Of a stretch of 64,000 nt of DNA, positions 52,024-62,650 are shown in pieces; the first letter of the stretch is position 1, and each line of letters starts with the position of its first letter. Under the pieces are notes generated by a model that was not told the DNA's origin, did no database searches, and saw nothing but the letters and a program-made list of their open reading frames with translations. The position numbers and the translations under genes were made by a program. This stretch comes from Phycisphaerales bacterium (GTDB taxonomy: Bacteria; Planctomycetota; Phycisphaerae; Phycisphaerales; UBA1924): assembly GCA_029260515.1 (NCBI GenBank), contig JAJDDC010000063.1:1-64000 (forward strand), in the 5' to 3' direction.

Positions 52024-52164
52024 AACGCCCGGCCTCCCGTGTTTCGGGGAATGGTGTTTTGCCCAATCTTTCGCCCTGATATCGTCGCTGTTGGAGAGAG
52101 CCGCCCTGGATGGGCGGGAGAGCGACACGCACGGCCAACGCCGTGGGGAATGAGAGAGTACGCG

Positions 52165-52848
52165 ATGAATATGTTTGTTCTGCCGACAATCGTTGGCGCC
52201 TGCGCCGTCACCGCATCCGCGGGTCTAACCACGCTCGCCGAGTACGAGATCAACGACCACCCGGGCGGCAATCTCGTCCCGCCGAGCTACGCCCTGCGCC
52301 TGGACAACACGTTCGGCCTCTCGCAGGCCACGTTCAGCGCAGAGGTGTACAACAACGCCCTGCTTGTCGTGACCCAGGACACCGACTCGGGCCAGATCTT
52401 CATCGACATCAACGGCACCTTCCGCGGCGGCGAGGACGTCGGCGGTTCATGGGACAGCCCCTTCGACCTCGAAGTCAGTTTCCGCTACGAGGCGAACGTT
52501 GTCGCGGTCGCCGACGGCTGGGCCGTCGATGGCTTCGCCGTGCTCAACTCGGGAACGTTCACCCGCCTCGACACGCTCGCTTCCGAGACGATGTACGGGC
52601 TCGAGGATTCCGCCGGCGACCACGGCCCCGTCGACGAGGTGTTCAGGATCGCTGCCGACGGCTGGCGTATCGACGGCGACGACGACACCTGGGTCGGGCG
52701 CGGCTGGCTCACCCCCAACGACGACGGATCCCCCCTCCACGCCGGCGGCTCGCTCGACTGGATCTTCGTGGGCAAGAAGATCCCCGCGCCCTCGAGCCTC
52801 GCGCTGCTCGGCGTCGCGGGCGCCTGCGCATCACGCCGCCGCCGCTGA
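52165..52848 (+). CDS. PEP-CTERM secreted protein (unrelated to the 22-24 kb trio)
   Basis: 227 residues. ATG 52165 has a GAGAGAG site upstream; ATG 52150 is an alternative. The signal peptide is MNMFVLPTIVGACAVTASA. The middle is beta-rich (YALRLDNTFGLSQATFSAEV, FDLEVSFRYEA, AVADGWAVDGFAVLNSG) without a known catalytic motif. The end is IPAPSSLALLGVAGACASRRRR, the PEP-CTERM sorting signal. A clear terminator follows, so it is monocistronic. Sequence does not share the landmarks of paralogues A to C. Confidence 0.88.
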   Translation: MNMFVLPTIVGACAVTASAGLTTLAEYEINDHPGGNLVPPSYALRLDNTFGLSQATFSAEVYNNALLVVTQDTDSGQIFIDINGTFRGGEDVGGSWDSPFDLEVSFRYEANVVAVADGWAVDGFAVLNSGTFTRLDTLASETMYGLEDSAGDHGPVDEVFRIAADGWRIDGDDDTWVGRGWLTPNDDGSPLHAGGSLDWIFVGKKIPAPSSLALLGVAGACASRRRR

Positions 52849-52874
52849 TCGACCGAGACACCCGTGCTCAACCG

Positions 52875-52904
52875 CACGCCCCCCGCAGGGGGCGTGTTTC
52901 TTTG
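52875..52904 (+). terminator. Rho-independent terminator after the PEP-CTERM gene
   Basis: CACGCCCCC-CGCA-GGGGGCGTG is a nine-pair stem (52875-52883 with 52888-52896) followed by TTTCTTT. It separates this gene from the metal importer operon. Confidence 0.88.
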
Positions 52905-52983
52905 CGCCCAAGGCCGGCCACCCGGAGCCGGCGAGCCGCCCCGAGCTGCTCTCGCACGCTGCATCCCAGCGGGCCGGCCCGCC

Positions 52984-53028
52984 TTGACAACGGCCGCCCA
53001 CGCCCTAAAGTAGCCAAGGCTACATTTT
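52984..53028 (+). promoter_or_regulatory. Promoter with MntR/DtxR-like operator upstream of the metal importer operon
   Basis: TTGACA (52984-52989) and TAAAGT (53006-53011) with a 16-base spacer form a good sigma-70-type promoter. A perfect inverted repeat GTAGCC-AA-GGCTAC (53010-53023), flanked by AAA and ATTTT, overlaps the -10 box and the expected transcription start. It closely resembles the E. coli MntR site (core TAGC-AAAG-GCTA) and fits a repressor of the DtxR/MntR family. The ATG of the first gene is at 53042. Confidence 0.65.
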
Positions 53029-53041
53029 GGCGAGGACCCGC

Positions 53042-54067
53042 ATGCCCACACCACTGAGAACCTCCGCGATCATCCTGCTCGGGCTCGTCCTGTCCGCGTG
53101 CGGGCCGGCGTCCGACCCCTCGGCGGGCGGCGGGGCAGACGCTGGCGAGTCGAAGGCGCCCCTCGCCATCGTCGCGACCACCGGCATGATCGCCGACACG
53201 GTCCGCGCTGTCGCGGGCGAGCACGCCCAGGTCACCGCGCTCATGGGCCCGGGCGTGGACCCGCACCTCTACAAGCCGACACGGGCCGACATCGCGGCTG
53301 TCAACGCCGCCGACGCGACCTTCTACAACGGCCTGCTGCTCGAGGGCAAGATGACGGACCTGTTCGTTCGCGCCGCGACATCGGGGCGCAAGGTCTTCGC
53401 GGTCACCGAGCTGATCGACGAGGCGCGCCTGCTTGAGCCCGAGCAGTTCCAGGGGCACTACGACCCGCACGTCTGGATGGACCCGGGCACGTGGCTTGTG
53501 TGCGTCGACGCCGTCCGCGAGCAGATGACACTGCTCGACCCTGCGCACGGAGAAGAGTACGCGGCGAACGCCGCGGCGTACAAGGACCAGCTCGCCGAGC
53601 TCGACGCGTACGCGCTGCAGGTCCTCGCCAGCGTCCCGCAGCGCTCCCGCGTCCTCGTCACCGCGCACGATGCGTTCAACTACTTCGGCGATCGTTACAC
53701 CTACGAGGTCGTGGGCATCCAGGGCATCTCCACCGAGTCCGAGGCCGGCGTCCGCGACATCGAGCGCATCGTCTCGCTCATCGCCGAGCGAGATATCCGG
53801 GCGGTCTTCACCGAGTCCACCGTCTCGCGCCGCAACGTCGAGGCCCTCGTGGCCGGCGCCCGCGCCCGCGGCCAGGACTGTTCCATCGGCGGCTCGCTCT
53901 TCTCCGACGCCATGGGCGCCCCGGGCACGTACGAGGGCACGTACGTCGGCATGATCGACCACAACATCACCACCATCGCCCGCGCCCTCGGCGGCGACGC
54001 GCCACCAAAGGGCCTGAACGGGCGGCTCGCCACCCAGACCGCGGCGCCCACGCGGGCGGCGCCATGA
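53042..54067 (+). CDS. Metal ABC transporter substrate-binding lipoprotein (TroA/ZnuA/YtgA-like)
   Basis: 341 residues. ATG 53042 follows GAGGA; lipobox LVLSAC near residue 20. Cluster A-I metal-binding fold: ligands are probably His75 (GVDPHLYKP), His143 (YDPHVWMD), His209 ([10 protein letters not shown]) and Asp289 (LFSDAMG), the His3-Asp set of TroA; PsaA/MntC would have Glu at the third position. ZnuA's His-rich loop is absent. TroA binds zinc and manganese, so the metal is uncertain. First gene of a four-gene operon with translationally coupled partners. Confidence 0.92.
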
Positions 54068-54900
54068 CCACCCTCCCCACGCACCGCCGCCCGTCGGAGC
54101 GCGACCTGTCGGCACGCCCCGAGCACTCGCCCGACAGCCCCCTGTCCGTCCACGCCCTCACCGTCGCCTACAGGCGCAAACCCGTGCTCTGGGACATCGA
54201 GTACGAGGCGCCGATCGGCCGCCTGGTCGCGATCGTCGGGCCCAACGGCGCCGGCAAGACCACGCTCATCCGCACGTGCCTGGGCCTCATCCGCCCCGCC
54301 GCCGGTCGCGTCGAGTTCTGGGGCCAGCCCTACCGGCGCGTCCGCACGCGCGTCGGCTACGTCCCGCAGCGCGAGAGCGTGGACTGGGACTTCCCGGTCA
54401 GCGCCCTCGACGTCGCCGCGATGGGTCGCTACGCCAAGATCGGCTGGTGCAGGCCCGTCACGCGCTCGCACAAGGCCGCCGCGATGCACGCGCTCGGGCG
54501 CGTCGGCATGGACCGCTTCGCGACGCGGCAGATCTCTCAGCTCTCGGGGGGCCAGCAGCAACGCGTCTTCCTCGCCCGGGCGCTGGCCCAGGAGGCGGAC
54601 ATGTACTTCATGGACGAGCCCCTCGCGGGCGTGGACGCGGCGACCGAGCGCGCGATCATCGAGATCCTCCGAGAACTCCGGGGCGAGGGCAAGACCGTCA
54701 TCGTCGTGCACCACGACATCCAGACCGTCCCCGAGTACTTCGACGACGCGCTTCTGCTGAACATGCGCGTCGTCGCGGCGGGCCCGGTCTCAGAGGTATT
54801 CACGAAGCAGAACCTGCAGGCGACCTACGGCGGGCGCCTCACCCTGCTCGCCGACGCCGCCGAGGCACTCGCCCGCGCCGGGCGAGGCGAGATCCCGTGA
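54064..54900 (+). CDS. Metal ABC transporter ATP-binding protein
   Basis: 278 residues; ATG 54064 overlaps the previous stop (ATGA). Walker [10 protein letters not shown] near 60, Q-loop [16 protein letters not shown] (the family's usual QR...VDWDFP), signature [15 protein letters not shown], Walker [13 protein letters not shown], and switch His in [15 protein letters not shown] is diagnostic of the metal-type (MntA/TroB) subfamily. It hydrolyses ATP to drive import through the two permeases that follow. Overlaps the first permease start by four bases. Confidence 0.95.
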
Positions 54901-56225
54901 GCACACCGGCCTCGATCACCGACGCGGGCATCGACTGGCCCACGCTGGGAGAGCTCGCGCACACCCTCACGTTCACCGCGGGCTTCAACGCCGCGGTCGT
55001 CGTCGCCAGCGCCTCGCTGCTCGGCGTTGCGGCCGGCATCGTCGGCGCGTTCGCCCTGCTCCGCAAGCGCGCGCTCATGGGCGACGCCCTGGCCCACGCG
55101 ACGCTGCCGGGCATCGCCGCCGCGTTCATCACCGCCGCCCTCCTGGGCGGGCAGGGGCGTCGCCTCGAGGTCCTGCTCCTGGGCGCCGCGGTCTCGGGCG
55201 TCCTGGGCGTCCTGTGCGTCCAGCTCATCGTCAGGCATACACGCCTGCGCGAGGACGCCGCCATCGGCATCGTCCTCTCGTGCTTCTTCGGGCTCGGCGT
55301 CGTCCTCCTCTCGGCCATCCAGTCCATGAGCGTCGGCGACCAGGGCGGGCTCGCGTCATTTATCTACGGCCAGACCGCCGCCATGCTCCCGCGCGACGCC
55401 GTGCTCACCGGTGTGGTGGCGCTGCTCGCGCTGATCGCCGCAGCGCTGCTCATCAAGGAGTTCACGCTCGTCTGTTTCAACGACGAGTTCGCGAGCGTCC
55501 AGGGCTGGCCCGTTGCGCGGATCGACGTGCTCATGATGGCGCTTGTTGTCGTTGTGACCGTCGCGGGGTTGCAGGCGGTCGGGCTTCTGCTGATCGTGGC
55601 GCTGCTCATCATCCCGCCCGCCGCGGCCCGGTTCTGGACCGATCGCGTCCGCACGCTCGTGATCCTCTCGGCCATCCTCGGCGGCCTGAGCGCGTATATG
55701 GGCGCGACCGCCTCGGCCCTGCTCCCACGCCTCCCCGCGGGCGCGGTCATCGTGCTCACCGCGGGCGTCGTCTTCGCGTTCTCGATGCTCGCCGCCCCGG
55801 CGCGGGGGCTCGTCGCCGTGGGCGTGCGCCGCGTCCGACTCTCGGCCCGGATCTCCCGCGACCACGCCCTCCGCGAGCTTGTTGTGCGCGAGAAGACCGA
55901 GGCGTCCGCCATCACGCCCGCCGCCCTCGCGAGCGAGATCGGGCTCTCGCCCCCCGCGGGCCGCTGGCTCGCCTACCGCCTCACCCGTGTCGGTCTCGTC
56001 GAACGCGAGGGCGTCGGGCTTTCGCTGACCGACCGCGGGCGCACGCTCGGGCGGCGCATCGACCGCAACCACGGTCTCTGGCAGCGCTATCTCATCGACC
56101 AGGCCGACGTCGCCCCAAGCCACGTCGATCTGTCGGCCGACCTCGTCGAGCACGTCCTGAGCCCCGAGATGGTCGAGCGTCTCGAGGCCAAGCTCACGCA
56201 CGCGGGTGGGGGGGCGCCCGCGTGA
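54897..56225 (+). CDS. Metal ABC transporter permease fused to a DtxR/MntR-like domain (first permease)
   Basis: 442 residues; GTG 54897 overlaps the previous stop. Residues 1-300 are an ABC-3 (ZnuB/MntB/TroC) permease with about eight helices, including [19 protein letters not shown] (coupling region) and [23 protein letters not shown]. Residues 318-435 are cytoplasmic: a winged-helix stretch ([30 protein letters not shown]) and a second helical part with ligands NHGLWQRYL (His) and SADLVEHVL (Asp, Glu, His), matching MntR His77, Glu99, Glu102 and His103. The N-terminal D-x2-E pair is not clearly kept. It recalls chlamydial YtgCR. Confidence 0.92.
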
Positions 56226-57625
56226 GCGACGCGACCTACGCGTTCGTCTCCCTCGACCTCCCCGCCGCCCTCGCGGGCGTGCTCGCGGCGTTGACGTGCG
56301 CCCTGCTGGGCAACTTCCTTGTGCTGCGCCGCCAGGCGCTGATGGGCGACGCGATCTCGCACGCCGTCCTGCCAGGGATCGTCGTCGGGTTCCTGATCGC
56401 CGGCTCGCGTGCGACCTGGCCCATTTTCCTCGGCGCCGCCGGCTCGGCGCTCGTCGCCGTCATGCTCATCGAGGCCCTCCGCCGCGTCGCACGCGTCGAG
56501 GCGGGCGCCGCCATGGGCGTGGGCTTCTCCATCCTCTTCGCCCTTGGCGTGCTGCTCATCGAGCAGGCCTCCGCCCGTGGCGTGGACCTCGACGCCGGGT
56601 GCGTCCTCTACGGCCAGCTCGAGTACGTCAACTGGTACCCCGTGCACGACTGGGGCAGGTTCTGGACACTCGAGCACATCACGACCGGCTACCAGACCGC
56701 GACAACGACGATCTCGCCCGACACCGGGCTTCCGATCCTCATCAAGGAGGGCGGGCTCCCACGCCAACTCTGGATGCTCGCCGCCGTCGCGATCGCGGCC
56801 TTCACCTTTGTCGGTGTCTTCTACAAGGAGCTCCGACTCACGACATTCGACCCGGCGCTCGCGACCGCTCTGGGTTTCCGGGCCGGGCTTATGCACGCGA
56901 TGCTGATGGTGCTGGTTGCCTCGGCCACCGTCGCCGCGTTCGAGGCCGTCGGCTCCATCCTCGTGATCGCGATGCTTATCGTGCCCGCCGCCGCGGCGCG
57001 TGTGTGCACGGACCGCTACGCCGTCCAGCTTCTCGCGAGCCTCGCGTTCGCGTTGGCCGCGGGCGTCCTCGGGTACATCGCGGGCGCCTTTGCGCCCGCC
57101 TGGGTCGGGTTCGAGGGGCGGGCGCTGAACGTCGCGGGCACGATGACGCTCGTCGCCGCGGTCCTGCTCACCGGCGCGATCTTCCTCGCCCCTGCGCACG
57201 GCGTCCTCTGGCGGGGCGTCCGCCGCCGACGCCTGGCGCTGAGCGTCGCGGTCGAGGACGTCCTGGCCGCCCTCTACCGGGGCGACGAGTCGGGGGACCC
57301 CTCGCGGGTCGCGGATCTGCCCGCGTCCGCCTTGACCCTCAAGGCGTTGAGCGTCCTGAACGCCCGGGGCGAGATCGGGCGGGCGCCCGGCGGGGGCTGG
57401 CGTCTGCACGAGCCCGGGCGCCGACGCGCCGCGTCGATTGTCCGCAGGCACCGCCTCTGGGAATCCTGGCTGGTCGATGAGATGGGCCTGCGCCCGGACC
57501 ACGTGCACGAGACCGCCGAGCGTCTCGAGCACCTCACCTCCGACGCGGGCGCCCTCGAGCCCGACCTGCCCCCCCGGGCCCTGGACCCGCACCAGCGCCC
57601 TATCCCCCCGGATGACGACGCCTGA
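56222..57625 (+). CDS. Metal ABC transporter permease fused to a DtxR/MntR-like domain (second permease)
   Basis: 467 residues; GTG 56222 overlaps the first permease's stop. ABC-3 permease in residues 1-330 (RRQALMGDAISHAVLPGIVVGF; FEAVGSILVIAMLIVPAAAARV), with an extra loop at 130-185 (YGQLEYVNWYPVHDWGRF, then KEGGLPRQLW). From about 339 the DtxR-like domain begins: SVAVEDVLAALYR aligns with the first helix of MntR, where its Asp is kept and its Glu is Ala. RRHRLWESWL and TAERLEHL keep the His, Glu, Glu and His ligands. The wing region is shorter. An acidic/proline tail ends the protein. Confidence 0.92.
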   Translation: MSDATYAFVSLDLPAALAGVLAALTCALLGNFLVLRRQALMGDAISHAVLPGIVVGFLIAGSRATWPIFLGAAGSALVAVMLIEALRRVARVEAGAAMGVGFSILFALGVLLIEQASARGVDLDAGCVLYGQLEYVNWYPVHDWGRFWTLEHITTGYQTATTTISPDTGLPILIKEGGLPRQLWMLAAVAIAAFTFVGVFYKELRLTTFDPALATALGFRAGLMHAMLMVLVASATVAAFEAVGSILVIAMLIVPAAAARVCTDRYAVQLLASLAFALAAGVLGYIAGAFAPAWVGFEGRALNVAGTMTLVAAVLLTGAIFLAPAHGVLWRGVRRRRLALSVAVEDVLAALYRGDESGDPSRVADLPASALTLKALSVLNARGEIGRAPGGGWRLHEPGRRRAASIVRRHRLWESWLVDEMGLRPDHVHETAERLEHLTSDAGALEPDLPPRALDPHQRPIPPDDDA

Positions 57626-57820
57626 GGCATCAGCCCTATATCGACACGGCGCAGGCACGTGACACTACCCGGGCCCTTCCAGAGACCATACCGTTCAATC
57701 CCGATCGGACGCCCGGGCGGGAATCATCCGGGCGCCTCGTCGGTACAGACCACGGGCGCCCGCCCGGGTCGTGCAGACCGGGGAGGCCGAGGGGCCCGAC
57801 CCGTGCCTTGGGAGGGCAGG

Positions 57821-59026
57821 ATGAGCCGGACTTACGCTGTGTTGATGGGGGCGCTGGCGGTCGGCGCGCTCGTGGTCGGCGCCCGTGCCCAGGGCGGGCC
57901 GCCGCCGGCGAATGTCGTCACCGACGGCGTCCGCCAGGAAACAATCGAGCAACAGCGCGGCGTGACGGGCGAGGTCCGCACGCGCCGGCGCTCGCGCCTC
58001 GCGGCCGAGGAGGTCGGCCTGGTCGTGCAGCTCGACCCCGAGGCCGGCGACGAGGTCGAGCAGGGCGCGGTCATCGCCCGCCTCGACGACACGCTCGCCC
58101 GTCTGGAGAAGGACCGCGCCGAGGCGCGGGTTGACCTGTACAACGCGACCATCGACCAGCGCAAGGCCGAGCTCAGCCGCGCGATGCGCGACCTCGAACG
58201 GATCGAGCGGCTCGACGCGGGCGGCTCGGCCTCGGTCTCCGAGATCGACGAGGTCCGCACCCGCGTCGCCGCCAACAAGGCGCTGTTGGCACAGGCCGAG
58301 GCGGACGCGGCGGTCGCCCGCGCCGAGCTCGCGCTGGCCGAGAAGCGCCTGGACGACATGACCATCCGCGCGCCGTTCGCGGGGCGGATCGTGCGCCGTG
58401 AGACCGAGCTGGGCCAGTGGCTCGCCCCGGGCGACCCGGTCGTCGAGCTGGTCGCCGTCCGTGATGTCGAGGCCTGGGTGGATGTGCCCGAGCGCGTCGT
58501 CGGGCGCCTCCGCGAGCTGGAGAAAGCCGGCCCGCTCGACATCGAGGTCCGAGTCAACGCGATCGGCGGCGTCGTTCCCGGGCGTGTCGTGGGCATCGTC
58601 CCCGAGGGCGACCCGCTGAGCCGTATGTTCCCCGTCCGAATTGCGGTCGCCAACGACGACGAGGCGCTCAAGCCGGGCATGAGCGTGATCGCGATGGTGC
58701 CAACCAGCGAGCGCGCGCCGACGGTGACCGTGCACAAGGACGCCGTCCTGCGCGACGACGCGGGCGAGTACCTCTACTTTGACGCGGGCGGGATGGCGAT
58801 GGTCGCCCGGATCGAGCGCCTCTTCGCCTTCGGCGACCGGGTCGCGATCCGCCCCGGGCGCCTCCAGCCCGGCATGCGCGTCGTCGTCAAGGGCAACGAG
58901 CGCCTCTTCCCGACCCAGCCCCTGAACATCATCGGGACGCTCGACGACGCCCCGCCCCAGAGCGCGGCCGCGCAGGGCGACGCCAAGGCGCCCGCCGACC
59001 ACACCACCAAGGGGGAGGGCGGCTAA
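57821..59026 (+). CDS. RND efflux pump periplasmic adaptor (membrane fusion protein)
   Basis: 401 residues. ATG 57821 after GGAGGGCAGG; longer upstream frame to 57659 lacks coding character. Sec signal (MSRTYAVLMGALAVGALVVGARA). HlyD/AcrA fold: lipoyl-like half (VGLVVQLDPEAGDEVEQGAVIARLDD), a helical hairpin (about 75-150), second lipoyl half (MTIRAPFAGRIVRRETELGQWLAPGDPV), then beta-barrel (GRVVGIVPEGDPLSRMFPVRI). No lipobox. It links the inner-membrane RND pump to the outer membrane. No outer-membrane channel gene follows within the window. Confidence 0.92.
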   Translation: MSRTYAVLMGALAVGALVVGARAQGGPPPANVVTDGVRQETIEQQRGVTGEVRTRRRSRLAAEEVGLVVQLDPEAGDEVEQGAVIARLDDTLARLEKDRAEARVDLYNATIDQRKAELSRAMRDLERIERLDAGGSASVSEIDEVRTRVAANKALLAQAEADAAVARAELALAEKRLDDMTIRAPFAGRIVRRETELGQWLAPGDPVVELVAVRDVEAWVDVPERVVGRLRELEKAGPLDIEVRVNAIGGVVPGRVVGIVPEGDPLSRMFPVRIAVANDDEALKPGMSVIAMVPTSERAPTVTVHKDAVLRDDAGEYLYFDAGGMAMVARIERLFAFGDRVAIRPGRLQPGMRVVVKGNERLFPTQPLNIIGTLDDAPPQSAAAQGDAKAPADHTTKGEGG

Positions 59027-59029
59027 CCC

Positions 59030-62000
59030 GTGGACATCGTCAAGCTCGCCATCTCCAAGCCAGTCGGCGTCAGCGTCGCCGTCATCCTCGTGGTCATGTT
59101 CGGCCTCATCGGTGTCGGCTCGATCCCCATCCAGCTCACTCCGACGGTTGACTATCCCATCATCACGATCGAGACGTACTGGGCCGGGCGGTCGCCCCAG
59201 GAGGTCGTCGACGAGATCACCAAGGAGCAGGAAGAACGCCTCAAGAACGTCACGAGCCTCAAGAAGATGTCCTCGTCGTCCTCGGAGGGCGCCAGCAGCA
59301 TCTCGCTCGAGTTCACGGTCGGCGCCGACATCTCCCGCGCCCTCCAGGAGGTTTCCGACGCCCTCCGCCAGGTCCCCGACTACCCCGACGACGTGACCGA
59401 GCCGGTCATCCGCGCCTCCGAGGGCGAGATCGACAACGCCGTCGCCTGGCTCATCGTCGATCTCGACCCCGCGACGCGCGACGTCCACCCCGACTTCGAT
59501 GTCTCATCCCTCTTCGACGCGCTCGAGAAGGAGGTCAAGCCCTACCTCGAACGCATCGATGGCGTCGCCCAGGTCAACATCTACGGCGGGCGCGAGCGCG
59601 AGGCCCGCGTCCTGCTCGATCCGTACAAACTCGCCCAGCGCGGCCTCAACCACGTGGACGTCGTCCGCGCCCTGCAGGGCGAGAACACCAACGTCTCCGC
59701 GGGCGCGATCGCCGAGGGCAAGCGCGACTACCGCGTCCGCCTCGTCGGCCAATACGAGACCCCCGAGCAGGTCCTCGAGACCGTCGTCGCCTACCGCGAC
59801 GGGCGCCCTGTCTATGTCAAGGACGTGGGCACGGTCGAGGAGGGCTACCAGAAGCAGCGTGGCTTCGTCCGCTCCTTCGGACACCCCTCCATCGCCATGC
59901 CCGTCATCCGACAATCGGGCGCAAACGTCGTGGACGTCATGGACGAGCTGCGGGTCCGCCTCGACGAGGTCCGCGCCGACATCCTCCCCAACCTCGGCGG
60001 CGCCGACGCCGGCGGTCCCATCGGCCCCGACCTCCGCCTCCGACAGGTCTACGACGAGACCATCTACATCGACTCGGCCATCGGGCTCGTCACCCAGAAC
60101 CTCTACATCGGCGGCGTCATCGCCATCGTTGTCCTCCTGCTCTTCCTCCGCTCGTTCACCTCCACGTTCGTCGTCGCCCTCGCTATCCCCATCTCCATCG
60201 TGGGCACATTCCTGGTCCTGCTCGCGCTCGGGCGGACGCTCAACGTCATCTCGCTGGCCGGCCTCGCGTTCGCCGTCGGCATGGTCGTGGACAACGCGAT
60301 CGTCGTGCTCGAGAACATCTACCGCCGCCTGAACGCGGGCGAGAAGCCCATGCAGGCCGCCTACCTGGGCGGGCGCGAGGTCTGGGGCGCCGTCCTCGCC
60401 TCCACGCTCACCACCGCCGCCGTCTTCATCCCCGTGCTCACGATCCAGGAGGAGGCGGGCCAGCTCTTCCGCGACATCTCGCTGGCGATCGTCGCCTCGG
60501 TCGTCCTGTCGCTCATCGTCTCGATCACTGTCATCCCCGCCGCCTGCTCGCGCTGGCTCCGCACGCCCAACAAGAAGACCAACCCCGCGCTCCGCGCCTG
60601 GCAGACCCTCTTCGGCCTCGCGCCCGCCCTCTCGTGGCTCAACGCACGCATTGGCGTCGCCATGCTCTGGATCATGGGCGGGTGGCGCGGCTGGACACTC
60701 CGCCCCGCGATCGTCCTCGTCATGACCGTTGCAAGCCTCTGGGGCGCCGCCCTGCTCATGCCCCCGATGGACTACCTGCCCGCGGGCAACCGCAACCTCG
60801 TCTTCGGCGGCCTGCTCATCCCCCCGGGCCTCTCGATCGACCAGCGAACAGAGATCGCCGAGACCATCGAGGGCCAGGTCAAGCCCTACCTCGGCGTTGA
60901 CCCCGACGACGAGCAGGCGATGGCACGCCTCGAACCGATCAAGCGGTGGGCGTGGGACGACGAGGGCGAGCAGCTCGAGTTCGAGCCCGTCCCGGTGGCC
61001 AACTTCTTCATCGGCGCCTTCGGCACCGGCATGTTCGTCGGCGGCACCAGCGCCGAGGAGCAGGTCGTCCGCCCCATCGGCCAGCTGCTCACAAACGCCA
61101 TGTCCTCCATCCCCGACAGCTTCGGCGGCGCGGGACAGACCTCGCTCTTCGGGCGCGGCATCGGCGGGGGCGGCTCCATCGACGTCGAGATCTCCGGGCC
61201 CGACCTCGAACGCGTCAACGCCGCCGCCGGCTTCGTGCTGGGCCTGGCCGGACCCCATTTCGGCTACGCCGACGCCCGCCCCAGCCCCGCCAACTTCAAC
61301 CTCCTCGAACAAGAGCTCCAGGTCCGCCTCAACGACCGCGGGCGCGAGCTTGGCCTGACGACCGAGGGCCTTGGCGTCGCGATCCGCGCCCTCTTCGACG
61401 GCGCGTTCGTCGGCGACTACAAGCTCGGCGCCGACACCATCGACCTCGTCGTCCTCCCCGCCGGCGGGCGCCTGGCGTACAAGGAACAGCTCGCCGACGT
61501 CCCCATCGCGACCCCCGCAGGCCCGGTCGTGCCCATCGACACGGTCGTGGACTTCGTCCCCAGCCGCGCCGCGCAGGAGATCCGCCGCGTCGAGGAGCTG
61601 CCCACCGTCTCGGTCCAGATCGACCCGCCCGACGACATGGCGATCGAGGAGGTCATGACCTGGCTGGAAACCAACGCGATCCAGCCCGCGCGCGAGGCCG
61701 GGCTGATCGACCGGACCATGCGCGTCCGCCTCGAGGGCACCGCCGCCAAACTCTCCGAGGTCCGCACGGCGCTGCTGGGCCCGAAGCCCGAGCGCCGCGC
61801 GTCGGGGAGTGTGTTCAACGCCGTGAACGCCGTCACCGGGCTGCTCATCGCCGCGGGCCTCGTCGTCGCGGGCGTCGCGGCCTTCCGCGCCCGCAAGAAG
61901 CCCGGCGTGTCGGTCGGGTACGCGATCGCGGGCGCCCTGCTGACCGCAGTCGTGCTCGGCGCCCTCTTCTTCCTCTTCGCCTCCAACCCCGCACTGCTCA

Positions 62001-62650
62001 CCGCCCGCATCATCTGGGCATTGATCGTCACGTATCTCCTCATGGCCGCCCTCTTCGAGAGCTTCCTCTACCCGTTCGTCATCATGTTCACCGTCCCGCT
62101 CGCGATCGTCGGCGGCTTCGCCGGCCTCGCCATCGTCCACTGGTGGTCGATGCAGGACCCCACCAAGGCCCCCCAGCAGCTCGACGTGCTCACCATGCTC
62201 GGCTTCATCATCCTCATCGGCGTCGTCGTCAACAACGCCATCTTGCTCGTCCACCAGGCGCTCAACTTCATGCACGGCCGATTCGGGGAGGAGGGCCAGC
62301 AGGGCCCGATGGACCCGCACAAGGCCGTCGCCGAGTCCGTCCGCACACGCATCCGCCCCATCTTCATGAGCGTGCTCACATCGGTCGGCGGCATGCTCCC
62401 GCTCGTCCTGTTCCCGGGCGCCGGCTCGGAGATGTACCGCGGCCTTGGCTCGGTCGTGGTGGGGGGCCTGCTCGTCTCGACCATCTTCACGCTCGTTCTC
62501 GCGCCCCTGATGTTCAGCCTCGTCGTGGATATGCGTCTCGCCCTGGCCCGGGCCTTGGCGGGCGGCTCGGACACGCCCGCGGGCGCCGCCCCGCCCCGCC
62601 GAGTGCGCCCCAAGGCCGAGGAGCCCGCACCCGAGCTCCAGCCCGCGTGA
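59030..62650 (+). CDS. RND-family efflux transporter with extra transmembrane pair
   Basis: 1206 residues, longer than AcrB (about 1049). GTG 59030 follows GGGGGAGGG, three bases after the adaptor stop. HAE1-type features: start KLAISKPVGVSVAVILVVMFGL; TM4 FAVGMVVDNAIVVLENIYRR, keeping the first Asp of the AcrB Asp-Asp pair (second is Asn); TM10 region GVVVNNAILLVHQAL with Asn instead of Lys. Extra length lies mainly at residues 520-590 and 928-985, the latter adding two hydrophobic helices (VTGLLIAAGLVVAGVAAF and YAIAGALLTAVVLGALFFLF). Substrate class (drug versus lipid versus metal) cannot be decided. Confidence 0.92.
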   Translation: MDIVKLAISKPVGVSVAVILVVMFGLIGVGSIPIQLTPTVDYPIITIETYWAGRSPQEVVDEITKEQEERLKNVTSLKKMSSSSSEGASSISLEFTVGADISRALQEVSDALRQVPDYPDDVTEPVIRASEGEIDNAVAWLIVDLDPATRDVHPDFDVSSLFDALEKEVKPYLERIDGVAQVNIYGGREREARVLLDPYKLAQRGLNHVDVVRALQGENTNVSAGAIAEGKRDYRVRLVGQYETPEQVLETVVAYRDGRPVYVKDVGTVEEGYQKQRGFVRSFGHPSIAMPVIRQSGANVVDVMDELRVRLDEVRADILPNLGGADAGGPIGPDLRLRQVYDETIYIDSAIGLVTQNLYIGGVIAIVVLLLFLRSFTSTFVVALAIPISIVGTFLVLLALGRTLNVISLAGLAFAVGMVVDNAIVVLENIYRRLNAGEKPMQAAYLGGREVWGAVLASTLTTAAVFIPVLTIQEEAGQLFRDISLAIVASVVLSLIVSITVIPAACSRWLRTPNKKTNPALRAWQTLFGLAPALSWLNARIGVAMLWIMGGWRGWTLRPAIVLVMTVASLWGAALLMPPMDYLPAGNRNLVFGGLLIPPGLSIDQRTEIAETIEGQVKPYLGVDPDDEQAMARLEPIKRWAWDDEGEQLEFEPVPVANFFIGAFGTGMFVGGTSAEEQVVRPIGQLLTNAMSSIPDSFGGAGQTSLFGRGIGGGGSIDVEISGPDLERVNAAAGFVLGLAGPHFGYADARPSPANFNLLEQELQVRLNDRGRELGLTTEGLGVAIRALFDGAFVGDYKLGADTIDLVVLPAGGRLAYKEQLADVPIATPAGPVVPIDTVVDFVPSRAAQEIRRVEELPTVSVQIDPPDDMAIEEVMTWLETNAIQPAREAGLIDRTMRVRLEGTAAKLSEVRTALLGPKPERRASGSVFNAVNAVTGLLIAAGLVVAGVAAFRARKKPGVSVGYAIAGALLTAVVLGALFFLFASNPALLTARIIWALIVTYLLMAALFESFLYPFVIMFTVPLAIVGGFAGLAIVHWWSMQDPTKAPQQLDVLTMLGFIILIGVVVNNAILLVHQALNFMHGRFGEEGQQGPMDPHKAVAESVRTRIRPIFMSVLTSVGGMLPLVLFPGAGSEMYRGLGSVVVGGLLVSTIFTLVLAPLMFSLVVDMRLALARALAGGSDTPAGAAPPRRVRPKAEEPAPELQPA

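Follow-up and report, generated by a model that had tools for sequence, protein, structure and literature searches.

A metal importer operon from a Phycisphaerales bacterium with a DtxR/MntR-type domain on both permeases: a possible built-in metal gate

The window analyzed here, 64,000 nucleotides of contig JAJDDC010000063.1 (positions 1 to 64,000, forward strand) from the Phycisphaerales bacterium assembly GCA_029260515.1, contains a four-gene metal ATP-binding cassette (ABC) importer operon (53042-57625), the neighbouring genes of which overlap by 4 bases. Both permeases of this importer continue into a C-terminal tail of the DtxR/MntR type. We put at about even the chance that these tails form a pair beneath the membrane that senses metal and acts as a gate, slowing import when metal is plentiful, with a separate MntR repressing the operon. 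Single permease-DtxR fusions are known, and the fusion seen here is not new in kind; the novelty lies in the doubling, in how widely it occurs, and in the lost DNA reading. The permeases and their tails are as follows:

54897..56225, + strand: permease 1, ABC-3 with a C-terminal DtxR/MntR-type tail, 442 residues (Pfam, predicted structure)
55833..56222, + strand: tail 1, residues 313-442 of permease 1 (Pfam, alignment, predicted structure)
56222..57625, + strand: permease 2, ABC-3 with a C-terminal DtxR/MntR-type tail, 467 residues (Pfam, predicted structure)
57212..57622, + strand: tail 2, residues 331-467 of permease 2 (Pfam, alignment, predicted structure)

Pfam analysis reveals that both permeases match ABC-3 and Fe_dep_repr_C (PF02742) above the cut-off, which confirms what an earlier reading of this DNA, made from the letters alone (the sequence-only reading), had described as a metal importer with a DtxR/MntR-like domain on each of its two permeases. 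Its proposal that the tails belong to the DtxR families stood for the metal-binding and dimerisation family PF02742 and not for the N-terminal family PF01325. Tail 1 is made up of a long helix (residues 305-333), helix-turn-helix (HTH)-like helices (341-364), a wing (368-377), and a metal/dimer part (378-435), and the structure models bear out, for both tails, the winged-helix-like fold that had been suggested.

The alignment places the ligand positions of tail 1 at H323, H392, D411, D415, E418, and H419, and those of tail 2 at D346, H410, E414, H429, E433, E436, and H437, followed by a DPHxxxIP segment. The primary site is thereby H-D-E-H in tail 1 versus D-E-E-H in tail 2. By this alignment the tails retain the metal-site residues of MntR (D8, H77, E99, E102, H103) and DtxR (H79, E83, H98), with H323 substituting for D8, D411 for H98, D415 for E99, and Q396 for E83 in tail 1. 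The three DtxR residues are given in the part of PMC2628430 available to us. Alignment and predicted fold thus support MntR-type ligands and one sensor-type domain per permease. The C-terminus of tail 2 (57584-57607) also keeps a DPHGxxIP segment, which in long DtxRs precedes an FeoA/SH3-like domain; no such domain follows it here, and the D and P are present in 96% of 57 second tails.

Comparison with relatives reveals that the metal site is kept and that the DNA-reading part is not conserved. The alignment comprised 81 first tails, 57 second tails, and 19 stand-alone repressors. The ligand columns of the first tails read His (73%; Asn 17%), His, Glu, Asp, Asp, Glu, and His, and those of the second tails Asp (91%), His, Glu, His, Glu/Asp (81%; Met 7%), Glu, and His. 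A Trp beside the metal site is found in 81/81 first and 57/57 second tails and in 3/19 stand-alone repressors. The tailed permeases were scanned against Pfam at E 0.01 with near-duplicates omitted (72 of the 81 first and 55 of the 57 second): PF02742 was matched by 69/72 first and 55/55 second permeases, and the DtxR N-terminal DNA-binding family PF01325 by 0/72 and 0/55, the tails of the window included. As a positive control, all five stand-alone relatives tested match both families. The columns of the recognition helix mostly carry 2-4 bits in the stand-alone proteins versus less than 1.8 bits in the tails, the exceptions being the Leu/Ala at the helix end and one Ala of tail 2. HTH helix 2 is missing from the alignment of five first tails (L009, L010, L011, L025, and L048), in which the ligands are retained.

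The same pattern is observed within the family of the window, where 21 loci (the window included) and 19 MntRs were compared by pairwise identity. The recognition helix shows an identity of 0.17 in tail 1 and 0.20 in tail 2 versus 0.73 in the MntRs; the metal half is at 0.71, 0.62, and 0.68, and the ligands at 0.93, 0.93, and 0.80, respectively. The membrane parts of permeases 1 and 2 are at 0.52 and 0.51. Of the 80 related loci, 14 combine both tails with a DtxR neighbour; in these, helix identity is 0.27 in each tail and 0.57 in the neighbours. Relatives of permease 2 are numerous (at least 5970 at E 1e-20 or better, among 8000 scored); PF02742 is present in all and PF01325 in none of the 120 listed, which have a helix identity of 0.25 and a metal half identity of 0.68. 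Six of the seven tail 2 ligands (D346, H410, E414, H429, E436, and H437) are present in 119-120 of these 120 second permeases. Position 433, in the primary site, is Glu in 66/120 and Met in 38/120, a variation that might track metal preference.

A stand-alone repressor usually coexists with the double tails. Among the 41 double-tailed genomes of the family, 39 encode a further PF02742 protein, 21 of them within 8 kb and 18 elsewhere, and two genomes encode none. The neighbour was read in 20 of the 21 nearby cases, as an MntR like that of the window in 18 and as a DtxR of approximately 230 amino acids in two. In the wider set, the available surrounding DNA contains a stand-alone repressor at 31 of the 56 double-tailed loci, 17 of the MntR and 14 of the DtxR type; the three weak MntR-type matches of L060-L062 were excluded from the MntR count. 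The genome of the window (3.83 Mb, 113 contigs, 94% complete) yields three PF02742 matches: two are the permease tails, and the third, encoded on contig C70, is a stand-alone protein of the MntR type that matches PF01325 as well. It further encodes three Fur-family genes and, on other contigs, two additional ABC-3 permeases without a PF02742 match.

The remaining features of the operon are:

52984..53011, + strand: sigma-70-like promoter, TTGACA-16-TAAAGT (10/12 matches; the sole one in 52850-57900, with 0.1 expected)
53010..53023, unstranded: perfect palindrome GTAGCC-AA-GGCTAC, an MntR-type box overlapping the promoter -10; candidate operator, its binder presumed
53042..54067, + strand: TroA/ZnuA-family metal-binding lipoprotein (PF01297, E 4.6e-78)
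54064..54900, + strand: ABC ATPase (PF00005, E 1.4e-27; the remaining listed matches are P-loop families)

With genes for a ZnuA-type binding protein, an ATPase, and two ABC-3 permeases side by side, the operon is of the TroABCD/ABC-3 metal importer type. The best NCBIfam matches of the ATPase are Mn-type ATPases, below their cut-offs, and the Pfam scan of this protein revealed no extra regulatory domain. Permease 2 contains an insertion of approximately 45 residues (135-180; 56624-56761), predicted as a beta hairpin, which at 0.36 identity across 120 relatives is less conserved than the rest of the protein; it likely lies on the periplasmic side, where the binding protein could be met.

The palindrome at 53010-53023 is the sole zero-mismatch match in the genome to the extended box pattern. 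A genome-wide search at two mismatches was uninformative (8 matches on both strands versus 39 and 44 for the reversed control), and the exact match alone was used. The GTAGCC box presumably resembles the MntR box of E. coli. In relatives the operon is preceded by a box as in the window, many having an adjacent MntR. The DNA preceding the binding-protein gene was compared for 71 loci and the window, 72 regions in all: the GTAGCC box occurs in 22, versus 0.3 expected from shuffles, and a TTTGA-N2/N4-TCAAA box in 19, versus 0.8 expected; no region carries both. Within the family, the GTAGCC box (two mismatches or fewer) precedes the binding-protein gene at 15 of the 17 MntR-type loci with an available upstream region, and at L144 it stands before MntR. 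Where double tails have an MntR-type neighbour (17 loci), the GTAGCC box is found at nine and the TTTGA box at none. In the 80-locus set, 17 loci with a DtxR-type repressor could be compared: the TTTGA-TCAAA box (one mismatch or fewer) is present at 9/9 with a V-x-x-G-[TS] recognition helix versus 0/8 with other helices. Locus L147, from the family of the window, combines an exact TTTGA box with a repressor of the DtxR type, and its permease 1 is nearest to those of L131, L130, L136, and L134, which have MntR and the GTAGCC box. As judged from these sequences, the class of operator at loci with a box matches the type of stand-alone repressor, the tails remaining of one kind, and inside the family it switches at L147. 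The Latescibacterota loci L060, L061, and L062 show a third operator form, approximately TTAGTC-NN-GACTAA, and another repressor helix (VAPASVTNM).

The sequence-only reading had surmised that a doubled fusion would be an unusual planctomycete variant, and this is not so. When 61 genomes of the family (that of the window included) were searched with PF02742, 58 had a match and 41 the double fusion. A set of 80 related loci from named genomes, in which double tails were called by tail length and alignment, comprises 56 double-tailed loci, 19 with an untailed permease 2, and five undecided (two cut by a contig end, two without a permease 2 match, and one with an unrelated extension). The record titles include Planctomycetota, Verrucomicrobia, Lentisphaeria, Latescibacterota, Gemmatimonadetes, Spirochaetes, Sumerlaeota, and Vicinamibacteraceae. 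In L012 (4180-4240) the tail of permease 2 stops 15 residues in, its start still being recognisable. The first permeases of Azospirillum (L031, L047, L049, L052, L055, and L081) carry a tail remnant of 99-122 amino acids without HTH helix 2 or metal ligands, beside an untailed permease 2.

A sensor that acts on the importer itself best explains why the ligands and the DtxR fold are kept on both permeases, DNA reading is lost, and a full repressor usually coexists. Three options had been raised at the outset, a heterodimer, metal gates on transport, and released repressors, and from the comparisons above the metal gate fits best. Homology to BtuC and PsaBC would place the tails on the cytoplasmic side, where they are presumed to bind metal; by analogy, the MntR-type box and MntR-like ligands suggest that this is likely manganese or iron. 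Because the primary sites of the two tails are unlike, a heterodimer with two different sites would be a natural assembly, and the simplest one if, as the gene content of the operon suggests, every importer contains both permeases; such pairing of the tails appears plausible. The metal-bound tails would then couple to the ATPase and block cycling, a form of trans-inhibition known from MetNI and ModBC, except that here the permeases would carry the sensor, and MntR would repress the operon through the MntR-type box on the promoter. We rate somewhat below even the possibility that a DtxR-type domain has here been turned into a two-part transport gate, in which two unlike permease-borne copies, each devoid of DNA reading and with a ligand set of its own, pair under the importer and shut it directly at plentiful metal; trans-inhibition would then have a module, present in many phyla, whose fold is not known to serve this purpose.

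Several observations weigh against such a gate, or against the part assigned to MntR. The winged-helix-like fold is predicted for both tails, and a few tails weakly match other winged-helix families (HTH_24 in 1/55; HVO_A0261_N in 1/55 and 3/72; HTH_IclR, MarR_2, and WH_AprA in 1/72 each). The net positive charge of the HTH, 3.6 and 3.1 in the tails versus 2.7 in stand-alone DtxRs, does not discriminate between them, making DNA contact possible. Tail 1 of the window has Q396 where 19/21 family members have Glu, and its model is of low confidence precisely around D411-H419. The six Azospirillum first-permease tails have lost the ligands, and tail 1 stands beside an untailed permease 2 in 19/80 loci, showing that the pair is not obligatory. 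Co-variation of tail 1 column 27 with tail 2 column 158, as a sign of pairing, was not significant (p 0.20, n 57), and column 158 is without Asp/Glu in 11/57 second tails. With regard to MntR, of the 18 family genomes with the further PF02742 protein elsewhere the one read is that of the window, where this MntR lies on another contig than the operon and has no convincing box upstream. Neither box was found within 150 bases at 8/17 double-tailed loci with an MntR-type neighbour, or at L148, the second DtxR-type case of the family, and at L133, which is of the MntR type, a TTTGA-like site with one mismatch lies closer than the GTAGCC box, which is located farther upstream.

A rival reading is that the tails, or one of them, undergo cleavage and then act as repressors of the operon, as described for Chlamydia YtgCR. 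Excerpts of PMC5599777 and PMC6504234 describe the same domain order, and the winged-helix-like models, the positive HTH charge, and the few matches to other winged-helix families are consistent with it. Nevertheless, PF01325 is absent from all 127 tailed permeases, the recognition helix is unconserved and in some tails deleted, 39 of the 41 genomes have a further PF02742 protein, and the operator, at loci with a box, is of the class that matches the stand-alone repressor. On these grounds released repressors, also raised by the sequence-only reading, were rejected as the principal explanation, and we consider them the least probable of those discussed here. A trap at the membrane, in which mixed dimers of tail and MntR through the common dimerisation part tie repressor activity to the state of the importer, would agree with the sharing of PF02742 and the co-occurrence of both proteins; since tails of the same families are found together with either short MntR or the 230-amino acid DtxR, a pattern that a specific mixed dimer would not predict, this too is improbable, if a little less so.

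Two further explanations were considered. The tails might merely clamp the two permeases together, the metal being structural, as one tail on each of two different permeases and a fold from a dimer-forming family would allow; permease 1 alone is tailed in 19/80 loci, however, and the other two ABC-3 permeases of the genome do without PF02742, leaving the clamp unlikely. Alternatively, the tails could bind the metal ion as it emerges beneath the channel and deliver it to MntR or client enzymes, leaving transport ungated. Such buffering or hand-off accounts for conserved ligands with lost DNA reading, for the position of the tails on the channel-forming subunits, and for the nearly constant presence of a further PF02742 protein, and is the least unlikely of these four; yet the retention of the whole two-domain DtxR fold and of the invariant Trp goes beyond the needs of a buffer.

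Among the closest known systems, YtgCR shares the domain order. The parts of PMC5599777 and PMC6504234 that we draw upon report the fusion on YtgC and a tail that is cut off, binds DNA, and represents the sole iron-dependent regulator identified. The former, citing Thompson et al. 2012, also mentions permease-DtxR fusions in 11 phyla, which that portion of the text takes as a hint that the chlamydial released-repressor mechanism may occur throughout bacteria. According to the same excerpts of PMC5599777, the likeness extends to an ABC permease with a C-terminal DtxR-like domain, a TroABCD-type operon (ytgABCD), and conserved metal-coordinating residues. The window differs, YtgR being known here by description alone, in that both permeases are tailed, PF01325 is unmatched, and the recognition helix is unconserved; moreover, the genome has three Fur-family genes and a separate MntR, and the fused domain is not the only DtxR-type regulator identified. 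Treponema TroABCD-TroR has the same operon type, but its sensor is a separate protein, which in the window exists besides the tails. The TTTGA-N4-TCAAA box found in the DtxR-type relatives makes up the core of Tptrop-B, an oligonucleotide of the T. pallidum tro promoter given in a section of PMC2628430.

For the proposed use of the tails, the precedent is found in ABC importers such as MetNI and ModBC, the dimerising C-terminal domains of which, as outlined in part of PMC10710835, bind substrate inside the cell and stop cycling. There the domain is on the ATPase and of another fold, whereas the window has candidate domains on both permeases and none seen on the ATPase. The match to PsaBC (7kyp) ends where the tails start, at residues 308 and 331, and the PsaBC permease chains are listed at 258-290 residues compared with 442 and 467 in the window. 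The openly licensed literature searched yielded no description of the doubled layout, its spread, or the lost DNA reading.

For this large group the comparison points away from a released-repressor mechanism: the metal sites persist, DNA reading has gone, and the operon often has a full-length repressor next to it. Should the tails gate transport, many metal ABC transporter permeases that appear "plain" in the databases would have a second, protein-level control of metal uptake. If the gate is indeed a two-part one, the repressor reading of permease-DtxR fusions derived from Chlamydia would be the exception and not the rule.

Directly downstream of the operon (57659-62650) are genes which, judged by eye, encode a membrane-fusion-type protein and a 1206-amino acid RND-type transporter. 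Upstream, the open reading frame at 52039-52848 has, again by eye, a PEP-CTERM-like C-terminus (PAPSSLALLGVAGACASRRRR).

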